Shown: positions 19,211 through 25,186, numbered from the stretch's first letter. The stretch is 46,543 bases of DNA from an uncultured Ignavibacteriales bacterium (GCA_947311785.1 CAMZLW010000017.1:1-46543); one strand, 5' to 3'. Notes: a model not told the origin generated them from the letters alone. Made by a program: numbers and translations.

Positions 19211-21829
19211 TTATGATTTATTAAATTCTAATTTATCATTGCCGTTATAATCTATAGTAATTGTATCACCAGTTTCAAATTTATTTAATAGCAATTCAGT
19301 AGAAAGAGGATTTAGTACATATTTTTGAATTGTTCTCTTCAATGGTCTTGCTCCATAAGCAACATCGTAGCCTCTATCCAACAAGAAATGTTTTGCTTTT
19401 TCGGTGAATTCAATTTTAATGTTTTTATTTTGTAACAATAGTTCAACATTTTGCAATTGGATTTCTATAATTCCAATAAGCTCTTTCTTCAATAGGGGTT
19501 TAAACAAAACAACTTCGTCAATTCTGTTTAAAAATTCTGGACGAATACTCTGCTGTAATAAATTTGTTAAACTCACTCTTACATCATTCATAATTGATTC
19601 AACATTTTTCTCATTTAATCCAGTCATTTTTTCTTGAATTAAATGCGAGCCGATGTTGGAAGTCATGATAATGATTGTATTTTTAAAATTAACTGTTCTA
19701 CCTTGATTATCGGTTAAACGTCCTTCATCCAAAACTTGTAACAACACATTAAAAACATCAGGATGTGCTTTCTCAATTTCATCCAATAGCAATACCGAGT
19801 ACGGTCTTCGGCGTACTGCTTCCGTTAACTGTCCGCCCTCCTCGTAACCAACATATCCGGGAGGTGCACCAATTAGGCGTGATACAGAATGTTTCTCCAT
19901 ATATTCACTCATATCAATTCGCACCATTGCGTGTTCGTCGTCAAAAAGTAAATCGGCAAGTGAGCGAGCTAACTCTGTTTTGCCCACGCCGGTTGTGCCG
20001 ATAAAGATAAACGAACCTATTGGGCGATTAGTGTCCTGCAAGCCTGCACGCGAACGCCTAATTGCATCAGCTACTGCTGTTACAGCATCGTCCTGCCCAA
20101 TTACACGCTTGTGAAGCTCCTCTTCCATTTTTACCAACTTACTACGTTCGCTCTCTAACATTTTATTTACCGGAATTCCCGTCCACTTAGCAACCACCTC
20201 TGCAACGTCTTCGGCTTCTACTTCTTCCTTAAGTAGTTTTTTGTTTTTTTGAATATCAACTAAGCTCTCACTCTCTTTTCTTAGCTCTCCTTCCAACTCA
20301 ACAATTTTGCCGTAGCGTATTTCCGCTACTTTACCAAGGTCTCCTTCGCGTTCAAATTTATCGGCAAGAATTTTTGTTTCTTCAATTTCACTTTTCAACT
20401 TTCTAATTTTCTGAATTTTTCCACGCTCAAGCAACCAGTGACTTTTTAACACATTACGTTTTTCATCAAGCTCTGCATATTCAAGTTTTATTTCTGCTAA
20501 TCTACTTTTTGAGAAATCATCGTTTTCACGTTTAAGTGCTTCACGTTCAATTTCCAATTGCTGGATTTTTCTTTCAAGTTGGTCAAGTTCTTCTGGCATC
20601 GAGTTAATTTCAATTCTCAATTTGGATGCAGATTCGTCAATTAAATCGATGGCTTTATCAGGAAGAAATCTATCGGTTATGTATCTGTTAGAAAGTTGAA
20701 CAGCCGCAACAAGTGCCGCATCTGTAATTCTAACTCCGTGATGCACTTCGTATTTATCACTTAATCCACGAAGTATTGATATTGCATCTTCCTCACTTGG
20801 TTCAGCAATTACAATGGGTTGAAAGCGTCTTTCGAGAGCAGCATCTTTTTCGATATATTTTTTATATTCTTTTAATGTTGTTGCACCAACAGCATGTAGC
20901 TCGCCTCGTGCCAATGCTGGCTTAAGAATATTTGCAGCATCCATTGCACCGTCCGTTTTGCCTGCACCAACAAGCTGATGAATTTCATCTATGAACAAAA
21001 TTATTTCTCCTTCTGAATTTTGCACCTCTTTGATAACAGCTTTAAGTCGTTCTTCAAACTGTCCGCGGAACTGAGCACCAGCTACCAACGAGCCTAAATC
21101 GAGCGAGATAATTTTTTTATCACGTAAGTTATCAGGAATATCTCCCGAGATAATTCTGTGAGCAAGTCCCTCGGCAATTGCAGTTTTACCCACACCAGGC
21201 TCGCCAATTAAAATAGGATTATTTTTTGTGCGTCGCGAAAGTACTTGCAGTACGCGACGTATTTCATCATCACGTCCAATAACGGGGTCTAACTTACCCA
21301 ACTTAACAAGCTCGTTTAAATCACGTCCATATTTTTTTAACGATTGGTATGTCTCCTCTGGGTTTTGTGATGTTACCCGTTGGTTACCACGTATATCTTT
21401 CAATGCAGAAAGGATTGATTTCTTTGTAATTGTATTTTTATTAAGCAAAGTACCAGCTTCACTTCTATCTTCAGCAAGTGCAATTAAAATATGCTCGGTA
21501 GAAATATACTCATCCTTTAATGTTTCGGCTTCTTTTACCGAGTTATCCAATAACTGTGCAGTTGATTGCGACATTTGCTGATTGCCAATACCAGCACCTG
21601 TTACTTTGGATTTCTTTTCCAGAAGTTCGCCAACTTTTATTAATAACGTATCAACATTGGATGCAATTTTTTGAATTAGTGAAACTGCCACACTATCTTT
21701 GTCTTGTAAAAGAGCAGCTAAAATATGCTCTGGCTCAACAATTTGATTGTTATAATTCTGTGCAATTTCAATTGAACTTTGAATTGTTTCCTGACCCTTT
21801 ACTGTGAATTTATTAAAATCAATTGCCAT
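19211..21829 (-). CDS. clpB: ATP-dependent disaggregase ClpB
   Basis: ClpB is a hexameric AAA+ chaperone that, with DnaK, extracts proteins from aggregates. At 872 residues it is full length. It has the Clp N domain ([20 protein letters not shown]), a first AAA+ module with Walker [16 protein letters not shown] near residue 207, and the coiled-coil middle domain (about residues 410-530, rich in K/E/L) that marks ClpB rather than ClpA or ClpC. The second module has [15 protein letters not shown] near residue 608, and the C-terminal part includes [17 protein letters not shown]. An AGAGG site precedes the ATG. No CIRCE element (TTAGCACTC-N9-GAGTGCTAA) is visible upstream. A 6-bp inverted repeat AACATT/AATGTT lies at 21885-21902. 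Confidence 0.97.
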
Positions 21830-21967: not shown

Positions 21968-22008
21968 TTGACAAATCAATATTTTCCACTTACTTTTGTA
22001 AGTAAGTG
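21968..22008 (+). promoter_or_regulatory. Promoter and overlapping operator of the tetR gene
   Basis: TTGACA (21968-21973), a 17-base spacer and TACTTT (21991-21996) form a near-consensus sigma70-type promoter. The -10 lies within the inverted repeat CACTTACTT (21987-21995) / AAGTAAGTG (22000-22008), which has a four-base spacer. A bound TetR dimer would cover the -10 region, so autorepression is likely. The adjoining GTAAGTGATTACA (22002-22014) recurs before the exporter gene. Confidence 0.65.
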
Positions 22009-22036
22009 ATTACATAATAATTATTGAGAACAGAAA

Positions 22037-22627
22037 GTGGCAAGAGAATCTACACAAATTAGGCAAGAGCAAATTAAAAAAGCTGTGCTAAGTATTATTA
22101 CCGATGAAGGTCTTCACCATGTTTCTGCGAGAAATTTAGCAAAACGAATTGGATTAAGCGAAGGTGCAATCTTTAGACATTTTGCAACTAAAAAAGATAT
22201 AATCAAAGGAATTATGGATGATGTAACAGTCGATTTGATAGGCTCGTTGCGAACAATTGTCCTTAGTCCAATTAAATCTGAAAAAAAAATATTTCAGTAT
22301 TTATGTAGAAACATAAAATATTTGAGTGAAAACAAGGGTATAACGATGCTTCTTTTTTCGGAAGCAGCTCACCTTGGTGATAAGGAATTAAAAAACAAAT
22401 TGAACCAAATACTAATGGAGCAAAAGCAATTTATTATCAAAATTGTTAAAGATGGAATTGCTGAAGGAGTTTGGGGAAAAAAGATTGTACCCGAGGATTT
22501 TGCAATGTTGTATCTCGGTATTCCAATCACTTTTAATATTGAGTTTATTCTTAACAAAGATAATTTTGTTATAGAAAATTTTTGCAAACGAATGTATTCT
22601 TTAATTATTAATACATTAAGAAAATAA
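22037..22627 (+). CDS. TetR/AcrR family transcriptional regulator
   Basis: A ligand-responsive repressor of 196 residues. The N-terminal helix-turn-helix is typical of the family: QEQIKKAVLSIITDEGLHHV, then SARNLAKRIGLSEGAIFRHF, then ATKKDIIKGIMDDV. The helical C-terminal half (residues 60-196) should bind the ligand and dimerise. The start is GTG at 22037. An operator-like inverted repeat overlaps its own promoter at 21987-22008, and a related site lies in front of the next gene. The regulator thus probably controls itself and the downstream exporter, porin and FmdE genes. The ligand is unknown. Confidence 0.94.
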   Translation: MARESTQIRQEQIKKAVLSIITDEGLHHVSARNLAKRIGLSEGAIFRHFATKKDIIKGIMDDVTVDLIGSLRTIVLSPIKSEKKIFQYLCRNIKYLSENKGITMLLFSEAAHLGDKELKNKLNQILMEQKQFIIKIVKDGIAEGVWGKKIVPEDFAMLYLGIPITFNIEFILNKDNFVIENFCKRMYSLIINTLRK

Positions 22628-22647
22628 AAAAGATTATAGATTATGTA

Positions 22648-22661
22648 TGTAAGTGATTACA
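22648..22661 (+). promoter_or_regulatory. Second operator-like site, before the exporter gene
   Basis: TGTAAGTGATTACA is an inverted repeat, TGTAA-GTGA-TTACA, 19 bases before the exporter ATG. Thirteen bases (GTAAGTGATTACA) are identical to 22002-22014 in front of tetR. Sharing the sequence at both positions flanking tetR points to the same regulator. Confidence 0.65.
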
Positions 22662-22680
22662 AACTTAATTGGGATGAATT

Positions 22681-23433
22681 ATGTTTTATACAATAATTGC
22701 TATAATAATATTTATAGCCTCTTTCCTTTTTGCGATGCTAGGTTTAGGTGGTGGAATGATTTACGTTCCCGTTCTTAAATGGGCAGGCTTTGATGTTAAA
22801 GCTGTTGCAATTCCACTTGGACTTTTACTTAATGGACTAAACACACTACTTGCATTAATTCCATATTCCAGAAAAAAGCTTGTCGATTGGAAGGGTGGCT
22901 CGGCTATGGCAATATCTGCATTAGTATTTGCTCCAATTGGGGCGTACACATCGCAGTTTGTTCCGGTTCAAACATTAATTATTTTCTTTGCAATTGCAGT
23001 TTTAGGTGCTGCGGTAAGAATGGTGTTTTTTGCTAAAAGTCCTGAACCTGAAAAAATGATGGAGATAAAAAAACGTTCAATAATTGGTATAGCAGTTGGA
23101 GCTTTTGCTGGATTCATGGGTGGAATGCTCGGACTTGGCGGTGGATTTATTATTGCTCCAATTCTAATGTGGATGGGTTACAAAACTAAACAAGCCGCAG
23201 CTACTACAGCTTTCGTTGTTACATTTTCATCCTTCTCCGGTTACCTTGGTCACATGGCTGAGGGCAATTTTAATTGGAGCTTAACAATAATGGTGGTTAT
23301 TGCTGTAATAATTGGCTCTCAACTCGGAGCAAGTTTTATGAGCGGAAAAGCAAAACCTAAATGGGTAAAATCGTTATACGCTGTTGTACTTTTTGCGATT
23401 GCAATTAAAATGATTTTAAGTGTTGTGCTATGA
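22681..23433 (+). CDS. TauE/SafE (TSUP) family anion exporter
   Basis: Integral membrane protein of 250 residues. It shows the internal duplication of the TSUP family: the first half has FAMLGLGGGMIYVPVLKWAG near residue 18, and the second has FMGGMLGLGGGFIIAPILMW near residue 155. Seven or eight hydrophobic helices are visible. Characterised relatives move sulfite, sulfonates or other small organosulfur anions, but the substrate cannot be read from sequence. GGGATGAATT precedes the ATG. It is preceded by an operator-like repeat and overlaps the porin gene by four bases (ATGA). The TetR, exporter, porin and FmdE genes are tightly spaced, as expected for one operon. Confidence 0.92.
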   Translation: MFYTIIAIIIFIASFLFAMLGLGGGMIYVPVLKWAGFDVKAVAIPLGLLLNGLNTLLALIPYSRKKLVDWKGGSAMAISALVFAPIGAYTSQFVPVQTLIIFFAIAVLGAAVRMVFFAKSPEPEKMMEIKKRSIIGIAVGAFAGFMGGMLGLGGGFIIAPILMWMGYKTKQAAATTAFVVTFSSFSGYLGHMAEGNFNWSLTIMVVIAVIIGSQLGASFMSGKAKPKWVKSLYAVVLFAIAIKMILSVVL

Positions 23434-24416
23434 GATTCTTAAAATCAATATTATTTATTCTAATTTTTTCTTCACAAATTTTTGCCCAAAGTGAAGTAGA
23501 GAATTTTGAATGGAATGGATACGGACAATTCAGAGCTTATAAATTGGGTAACAACTCTGAAGGCTTTATGATAAGACGTGCAAAACTTTGGGTTAAGGGA
23601 GAAGTGCCTTCTGAAAATAGTTTTAGTTACAAAGTGATGGGAATTTTCACTTACAATCATTCCGGATATTTTGGTTTGCTCGATGCTTACGGAAATTATA
23701 ATTTCTTGAATGGATATTTAAGATTTGGACAACAAATTCCGGAGTTTAGTCTTCAAAGAGAACAACCCGATTGGAAAATCCCCGTTACAGAAAGAGCTTC
23801 CGTAATAAATAGAATGATTCCTGCTGCACAATCATTTGCTCGCGATTTAGGAATTCAAGTCCACTTAAATTTATTGAATAACTATTGGCAGATTGCATGT
23901 GGAGTTTTTAACGGAGATGGTGCAAATCTTAAAAATCATAATTCATCAAATTTTCTTTACACTGTTAGAAGTAGCCTTAAAATTGCGTTCAAAAAAAATT
24001 ATGCTTTGCACATTGGGGCTTCAGCAATGTACAGATATGCAGAGCAATACGACTTCTCATTAATCTTTGGAAGTAACTCAAGTTATACAGGAAACGATTT
24101 CCGATATGGCATTGAAGCCCTTTTAGCGTTAAACAAATTAGAACTTCAAGCTGAATACATTTCAGCAAACTTCAATGGCTTAAAAGCTTATGGTTACTAT
24201 GCATACGCGAATTACAATTTCACACCAAAAGATCAACTCGTTTTATCAACGGAACAACTGGTGGATTTAAATAACGACACTTACGACGACCCTTGGTTAA
24301 AGGTTGGTTACAATCATCTCTTCGCTAACAATGACGTTAAGTTAATGGTAAGCGGAGGCACACAATTTAACGACAATTATTCATTAACAACACAGATACA
24401 ATTATTTTTTAATTAA
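23430..24416 (+). CDS. Outer-membrane porin, phosphate-selective OprO/OprP-like
   Basis: Predicted beta-barrel of 328 residues after a signal peptide (MRFLKSILFILIFSSQIFAQ). Alternating short amphipathic strands with aromatic ends run through the whole protein (EWNGYGQFRAYKLGNNSEGF, MIRRAKLWVKGEV, YLRFGQQIPEFSLQREQPDW, VNRMIPAAQSFARDLGIQVH), closing with a strand that ends in phenylalanine-asparagine (LTTQIQLFFN). RRAKLW and the RFGQ...EFSLQ stretch are typical of the O/P porin family, which forms anion-selective channels. It overlaps the exporter gene by four bases and precedes the FmdE gene by 17. An outer-membrane channel for the same anion handled by the exporter is an attractive inference, not shown. 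Confidence 0.85.
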   Translation: MRFLKSILFILIFSSQIFAQSEVENFEWNGYGQFRAYKLGNNSEGFMIRRAKLWVKGEVPSENSFSYKVMGIFTYNHSGYFGLLDAYGNYNFLNGYLRFGQQIPEFSLQREQPDWKIPVTERASVINRMIPAAQSFARDLGIQVHLNLLNNYWQIACGVFNGDGANLKNHNSSNFLYTVRSSLKIAFKKNYALHIGASAMYRYAEQYDFSLIFGSNSSYTGNDFRYGIEALLALNKLELQAEYISANFNGLKAYGYYAYANYNFTPKDQLVLSTEQLVDLNNDTYDDPWLKVGYNHLFANNDVKLMVSGGTQFNDNYSLTTQIQLFFN

Positions 24417-24433
24417 ACAAAAGGAGTATTATT

Positions 24434-25036
24434 ATGACTAATCCACAAGAATGGTTAGAATTCGGACAAAAATTTCACGGACACAAATGCCCTGCAATGC
24501 CAATGGGTTTAAGAGTTGGTGCAACCGCAATGAACAAACTTGGAGTTGAAAGAGCAAAAGACGGACAGATTCTCGCACTCGTTGACCTTGGCGATAATCA
24601 TTGTGCAACTTGCTACGCTGATGGATTGCAAGTAATTATGGGTACAACTTTCGGAAAAGGAAATATCAAAAAAACACACAAAGGCAAATGGGCTTTAACT
24701 TTGGTTGATAAAGCATCAGGGAAAGCTGTTAGAGTTACACCAAAAGCAGAAGCAATGCTTGCAAATAAAAAAACAGAATTCTTTTCAGAGTACAGAGAAA
24801 AAGGAATTCCTGCAAGTAAAGTGCCTGACGAAGTTGTTGAGCCATTAGTTCAAAAAGTAATTGGTGCACCAGAAGAGATGCTTATGAATATCTCGGAGGT
24901 TTTTGATTATAAATTAGAACCACCAAAAGATAGCTTTGCAAGTTTTGTATGCGAAGATTGCGGCGAAATGACTGTTGAAGAATACGGACGCGTTAAAGGT
25001 AGCAAAAAATTGTGTATAGATTGTGCAAATAAATAA
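24434..25036 (+). CDS. FmdE family protein with C-terminal zinc finger
   Basis: A 200-residue cytosolic protein of family PF02663. The N-terminal core has the conserved FHGHKCPAMPMGLRVGATAM at residues 14-33, then DLGDNHCATCYADGLQVIMG with DNHCATC, and TTFGKGNI. A C-terminal treble-clef-type zinc finger follows at about residues 173-199: CEDCGEMTVEEYGRV and then CIDCANK, giving CxxC...CxxC. The name comes from the formylmethanofuran dehydrogenase operon of methanogens, but this organism need not have that pathway, and bacterial members lack an assigned reaction. A strong AAAGGAG site precedes the ATG. It is the last gene of the TetR/exporter/porin unit, so it may act on or sense the transported compound. 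Confidence 0.9.
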   Translation: MTNPQEWLEFGQKFHGHKCPAMPMGLRVGATAMNKLGVERAKDGQILALVDLGDNHCATCYADGLQVIMGTTFGKGNIKKTHKGKWALTLVDKASGKAVRVTPKAEAMLANKKTEFFSEYREKGIPASKVPDEVVEPLVQKVIGAPEEMLMNISEVFDYKLEPPKDSFASFVCEDCGEMTVEEYGRVKGSKKLCIDCANK

Positions 25037-25124
25037 AAACTTGGATATAGCAAATTATATATAGGTAAAAATGAAAGAAGAAATTTATTACAGATATGTC
25101 TCAAATTCGGTAAGTAATGAAACT

Positions 25125-25186
25125 TAACCAAGGTTATTAGAATTAATATAATAACTTTGGTTAATAATTCTTATTTTTATTTTTTT
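25125..25186 (+). terminator. Terminator of the exporter-porin-FmdE unit
   Basis: Fifteen-bp stem with one G-T pair: arms TAACCAAGGTTATTA at 25125-25139 and TAATAACTTTGGTTA at 25149-25163, with a 9-base loop. A T-rich tail follows to about 25186. A possible 18-codon ORF (ATG at 25071) lies between the FmdE gene and this hairpin, but nothing supports its translation. Confidence 0.8.

Follow-up and report, generated by a model that had tools for sequence, protein, structure and literature searches.

What does an operon transport that joins a TetR-family repressor, a TSUP (TauE/SafE) membrane protein, a porin and an FmdE-family protein? The operon lies in a 46,543-nucleotide stretch of DNA from an uncultured Ignavibacteriales bacterium (the window), which is contig C17 in a genome of 2.85 Mb. 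An ORF map and family scans confirmed four consecutive plus-strand genes at the place where the original prediction had put them (Table 1). The genes had been described as joined by 4-bp overlaps or short gaps. The short gaps are there (53 bp between tetR and the TSUP gene, 17 bp between the porin gene and fmdE), but there is a single 4-bp overlap, between the TSUP and porin genes. Similarly, the strong terminator thought to close the operon is a real hairpin and strong for its composition, but its U-rich stretch lies about 10 nt past the stem; a scan for GC-stem terminators gave nothing above chance, and this AT-rich hairpin escaped it. An Rfam search found no elements within the operon. Some 200 bp from tetR, in divergent orientation to the operon, lies a ClpB-like AAA+ chaperone gene (window positions 19211-21829), and a relative of it (cluster c37) is also found near the module at two other loci (L052, L089).

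Table 1 Features of the operon and its flanking control elements, in window coordinates.
Feature	Position	Strand	Details
Promoter, TTG-N20-TACTTTTG (Bacteroidota -33/-7 type)	21968..21998	+	Exact match
Putative operator O1, TGTAAGTAAGTGATTACA	21997..22014	+	Overlaps promoter; palindrome conserved in related loci
TetR-family repressor	22037..22627	+	196 aa, GTG start, PF00440
Putative operator O2, TGTATGTAAGTGATTACA	22644..22661	+	No accompanying promoter found; palindrome conserved in related loci
TSUP (TauE/SafE) inner-membrane transporter	22681..23433	+	250 aa, PF01925
OprO/OprP-type 16-strand porin	23430..24416	+	328 aa; orthologue profile and AlphaFold/Foldseek
FmdE-family protein with C4 zinc finger	24434..25036	+	200 aa, PF02663 and PF01258
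Terminator-like hairpin	25124..25164	+	16 bp, AT-rich, U-rich stretch downstream; -17.1 kcal/mol, z -5.06

Both membrane proteins belong to families with anionic cargo. PF01925 matches the TSUP protein over its full length (residues 6-244 of 250, 162.9 bits, 1.3e-47, above the curated cut-off); a sequence search returned no TSUP relative of solved structure. Proteins of this family move sulfur oxyanions and include sulfite and sulfonate exporters. TauE, for example, is cited as a sulfite exporter (PMC8472584). The window porin by itself has no Pfam match; one of its orthologues matches PF07396. A profile of 25 orthologues searched against the PDB found OprO best (5.6e-07) and also OprP, and the AlphaFold model (pLDDT 87.6) is a 16-strand barrel whose best Foldseek match is OprP (2o4v). 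Because profile and model agree in this way, the earlier assignment to OprO/OprP-like porins was right. The protein begins with a hydrophobic helix, likely a signal peptide, and has conserved arginines at positions 49, 50, 122, 138 and 202. It differs from OprP in sequence, to which it is 18% identical, and its anion selectivity is a prediction. Its match to ExtI, the porin of a selenite/tellurite operon, is weak (29 bits against a cut-off of 150). At five loci elsewhere (L019, L021, L027, L037, L041), a CDF cation transporter takes the porin's place between TSUP and FmdE.

The last gene encodes, as proposed, an FmdE-family protein with a zinc finger (PF02663, 3.8e-27; zf-dskA_traR finger PF01258, 1.1e-07). 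The closest solved structure is 2gvi from Thermoplasma (TM 0.81). The window protein shares with 2gvi, 2glz and 3d00 the fold, the NTD plus zinc-finger architecture, and the FHGHxC motif with a second cysteine. In 2gvi, the zinc ligands are His16, His18, Cys20 and Cys61, and a group of unknown identity lies 1.8 A from the Cys61 sulfur (PMC2954224). The equivalent residues here are His15, His17, Cys19 and Cys60, all of them invariant in 73 close homologues. So are His56 and Cys57 of an HCATC motif, and it is this extra cysteine, Cys57, that sets the window's subgroup apart from the three solved proteins. The finger (Cys173/176/194/197) has four cysteines like that of 3d00, whereas the 2gvi finger is Cys3Asp. 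The FHGHxC metal site, soft and rich in sulfur, would fit a thiophilic metalloid. Formylmethanofuran dehydrogenase operons account for only 13 of 208 PF02663 members (PMC2954224), and genes for that enzyme were found neither in the operon nor in the recurrent neighbourhood of FmdE loci.

The control region supports a dedicated circuit. The promoter matches TTG-N19/20-TAnnTTTG, which we take to be the Bacteroidota-type consensus, and exact copies are present in 15 of 26 tetR leaders compared to 0.15% of shuffles; a sigma-70 scan gave no signal above chance. In the window and most relatives, the 3' end of the promoter reaches two bases into O1, and in most relatives its TA element sits at a fixed distance of -6 from the operator. 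O1, before tetR, and O2, before the TSUP gene, are near-identical and are the sole exact copies genome-wide. A palindrome scoring at least 11/14 is found in 25 of 33 tetR leaders and 24 of 36 spacers between tetR and the next gene, but in none of 63 control stretches. No exact promoter was found before O2 or the TSUP gene in any of 32 such spacers, against the 15 of 26 leaders that have one, and we therefore rejected a separate promoter for the TSUP gene. Since the promoter accompanies O1 only and both operators are conserved, the simplest reading is a single transcript under autoregulation, with O1 as the main operator and O2 as the auxiliary one. A wider regulon in this genome was likewise rejected: there is no third exact site, and sites with three mismatches are no commoner than those of the reversed pattern.

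The repressor itself (PF00440, 35.4 bits against a cut-off of 24) has nine orthologues besides the window's in a protein search of 58 genomes (its own and relatives), and all nine precede module genes. Together with the single conserved promoter and the two operators, this bears out the proposal of an inducible export operon with its own TetR; separate promoters, which would have spoken against it, were not found. Two cysteines, Cys90 (conserved in 36 of 36 homologues) and Cys183 (35 of 36), are a plausible candidate for the inducer sensor. The same pair occurs in TetRs that precede other genes, which counts against the arsenic reading developed below.

How widely is this arrangement conserved? 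One scan of GTDB genomes with an FmdE alignment as the single query gave 80 FmdE loci; these are related by descent and cannot be counted as that many independent events. Their genes were called as mechanical ORFs and clustered by BLAST, and short contigs hide some neighbours. Most loci are from Bacteroidota and Ignavibacteria, with others from Calditrichota, Spirochaetes and Cloacimonadota; Prolixibacter bellariivorans and P. denitrificans (L026, L023) are culturable hosts. TSUP is present in 64 of the 80, often with porin and TetR, so the expected clustering of TauE/SafE, FmdE and TetR is strong and spans several phyla; a lack of clustering, which would have spoken against the proposed operon, is clearly not what we see. 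Because the same arrangement recurs in distant genomes, it is more than chance. Two genomes of the same family have the order TetR, second FmdE, TSUP, porin, FmdE, and their proteins are 85-86% (TSUP), 74-86% (FmdE) and 44-58% (porin) identical to those of the window. The second FmdE paralogue (FHGHxCPFMPIG ... GHPQGCMQDG type) lies between TetR and TSUP in relatives (L009:7869-8510, L010:8958-9590 and many further loci) and the window lacks it. Five loci (L009, L010, L015, L022, L035) carry a pair of histidine kinase and sigma54-type response regulator immediately after the module; the window does not.

The TSUP protein is also rare: a reverse search with TSUP through 296 genomes of the phylum gave a match at 1e-60 in just two, the window's own and G020. 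None of four genomes of the same genus has the module, and because of this we consider the cassette patchily distributed and probably moved between lineages by horizontal transfer. Large plasmids of Citrobacter and its relatives, from clinical and environmental strains and in part conjugative, also carry FmdE and TauE/SafE genes, some with ars genes and some without (L104, L107). In haloarchaea, a plasmid of Halorubrum sp. BOL3-1 (p163, L106) carries an FmdE-TSUP-CDF-ZIP cluster, in which FmdE and TSUP are paired outside bacteria and outside any ars context.

Among the neighbours that recur around FmdE are arsenic genes. Among the 80 loci we found ArsC in 30, ACR3 in 28 and ArsM in 11, as well as ArsR, ArsP_1, ArsE, ArsF and ArsG. 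Representatives of ACR3, arsenate reductase, arsenite methyltransferase, ArsE, ArsF, ArsG and ArsP_1 were identified by NCBIfam and Pfam, with scores over the cut-off for ACR3 (401 against 283 bits), arsenite methyltransferase (345 against 263) and ArsG (312 against 200). For arsenate reductase, the representative matched models of that enzyme best, yet stayed below their strict cut-off (138 against 174). As a density control, we searched 37 module genomes for ACR3 and obtained 34 matches over cut-off, about one per genome. In these genomes, which share ancestry, ACR3 fell inside the roughly 12 kb FmdE locus in 20 of 37 cases, against 0.11 expected from density; a Poisson value for this excess takes no account of the common descent and is not to be read at face value.

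The linkage extends to gene order. At 23 loci, ArsC, ACR3 or ArsM is in a tight same-strand run with FmdE, and 18 of these runs also include TSUP; one reads ACR3, TSUP, FmdE with gaps of 3 and 19 bp (L055). At seven loci, FmdE is in a run that has ArsR ahead of it and no TetR. An ArsR-ArsM pair is divergent from the TetR operon at four loci (L015, L018, L033, L092), and ArsR alone at another (L032). Two plasmids of Pseudomonadota show the same association: in Sulfuricella denitrificans (L105), TauE/SafE-FmdE is some 8 kb from ArsC, and in Citrobacter amalonaticus Y19 (L107), TauE/SafE and FmdE are beside ArsC, ArsD, ArsA and ACR3. In a same-family genome (G021, which is also G054), the module and the ACR3 gene are some 14 kb apart. 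The operon was originally called self-contained, which is true in the window; elsewhere, though, module genes are interleaved with ars genes.

Several observations weigh against an arsenic role. In the window's own genome, no ars genes adjoin the module, and the arsC-acr3 pair is on a different contig (C79). ArsC, ACR3 and ArsM are all missing from 19 of 46 long loci (~40%), and any of them is present in the locus for only 10 of 28 TetR-headed runs. The Halorubrum FmdE-TSUP pair, too, is accompanied by CDF and ZIP metal transporters and not by ars genes. A methylation-dependent role in this host was rejected, there being no ArsM over cut-off in its genome.

On balance, we propose that the operon is a TetR-controlled accessory export module of the response to arsenic, as a thiophilic metalloid, and we give this a probability of roughly 0.55. 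Because ars genes (ACR3, ArsC, ArsM, ArsP, ArsEFG) recur in the module's neighbourhoods, the earlier hint of a sulfite or sulfonate substrate gives way to arsenic and the exporter reading is kept; the outward direction is suggested by the TSUP family name and the ars context. In such a scheme, TetR would repress its own single promoter through O1, reinforced through O2, until an inducer, possibly sensed by Cys90 and Cys183, releases it. FmdE, originally proposed to sense, carry or modify the exported molecule, would work as a cytoplasmic dimer that binds the cargo at a His/His/Cys/Cys site and either passes it to the exporter or converts it for export. TSUP would then take this cargo, an anionic arsenic species or else an adduct of sulfur and arsenic, through the inner membrane, and the porin would offer the exit through the outer membrane.

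Which arsenic species might this be? Thioarsenate is an attractive candidate, because TSUP proteins have sulfur oxyanions as cargo and because resistance of this kind has been anticipated. A 2018 review held that thioarsenate resistance mechanisms should exist, though unverified (PMC6205960). The module could conceivably be this missing bacterial system for thioarsenates or methylated thioarsenicals, with FmdE binding or converting them, TSUP pumping and the TetR cysteine pair sensing, but we regard so specific an assignment as rather doubtful.

The alternative that survives best keeps sulfur as the cargo. Here the module would accompany ars genes as a sulfur-anion or thiol-stress system, TSUP exporting sulfite, thiosulfate or other sulfur species from disturbed thiols or sulfide and FmdE acting as a redox or metal carrier. 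The known transport of sulfur oxyanions by the TSUP family speaks for it, as do rhodanese in 13 loci and OsmC, thioredoxin-like and DGC-domain neighbours. Against it, genes for ACR3, ArsC and ArsM lie interspersed in the module's own runs, and no family of sulfite or sulfonate metabolism is among the recurrent gene clusters of FmdE loci, so we consider it unlikely, if worth keeping in mind.

A role in divalent-metal (Zn, Cd, Fe) homeostasis is improbable. It would make FmdE a zinc-binding carrier or sensor working with CDF-type transporters, and its place in ars islands a feature of general metal-resistance islands. CDF genes are indeed in 28 of the 80 loci, sometimes at the porin's position, and the Halorubrum cluster fits as well; zinc occupies the FmdE site of 2gvi and 2glz, and metal-ion transporter genes are the neighbours of most PF02663 genes (PMC2954224). 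However, TSUP proteins and O/P porins have anions as cargo. Because P-type metal ATPases and MerA-like reductases are rare (2 loci each), these are not general metal islands. In Acidiplasma, FmdE is over 14-fold lower on sulfur, pyrite and arsenopyrite than on iron, which is neutral between the readings. Finally, TetR might control the export of some unrelated compound, organic or an oxyanion (sulfonate, phosphonate, selenite, tellurite), with the module hitch-hiking beside ars genes on mobile islands. The organic ligands that TetR regulators often sense, the weak ExtI match and the patchy distribution would suit this reading, but it is very unlikely, as hitch-hiking leaves FmdE and TSUP inside ArsR-headed runs with few-base gaps unexplained.

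If the arsenic reading is true, the ars systems of anaerobes gain a transporter family that has not been listed for them. Crystal structures of FmdE proteins are available and, outside methanogens, no reaction has been assigned to these proteins; the arsenic link gives them a directly testable role. Thioarsenates arise under sulfate-reducing conditions, and the module may be relevant to bacterial resistance there. The operon also supplies a defined TetR/operator pair as a candidate sensor. New here are the overlap of promoter and operator before tetR, the promoterless second operator, and the conservation of both in related loci.

How does the module compare with known systems? Like the TauE/SafE exporters of sulfite and sulfonates, it has a full-length PF01925 membrane protein; unlike them, it is partnered by FmdE, and its loci lack recurrent genes of sulfite or sulfonate metabolism. 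A survey of 685 ars operons listed ACR3, ArsB, ArsP, MFS, MIP and a few rare transporter types, with no TauE/SafE (PMC4435449), and TauE, TSUP and FmdE are likewise absent from a review of ars genes (PMC6205960). Our literature search, which left most subscription papers outside its scope so that absence is not proof, found no report of the module or of a link between FmdE or TauE/SafE and ars. The best reading is thus an export module of ars type, accessory in role and assembled from families previously unlisted for ars operons. With those operons (ArsR, ArsC, ACR3, ArsP, ArsM, ArsEFG) it has in common its loci, often single same-strand runs, and the logic of inducible efflux, but in the window it is under the control of TetR rather than ArsR.
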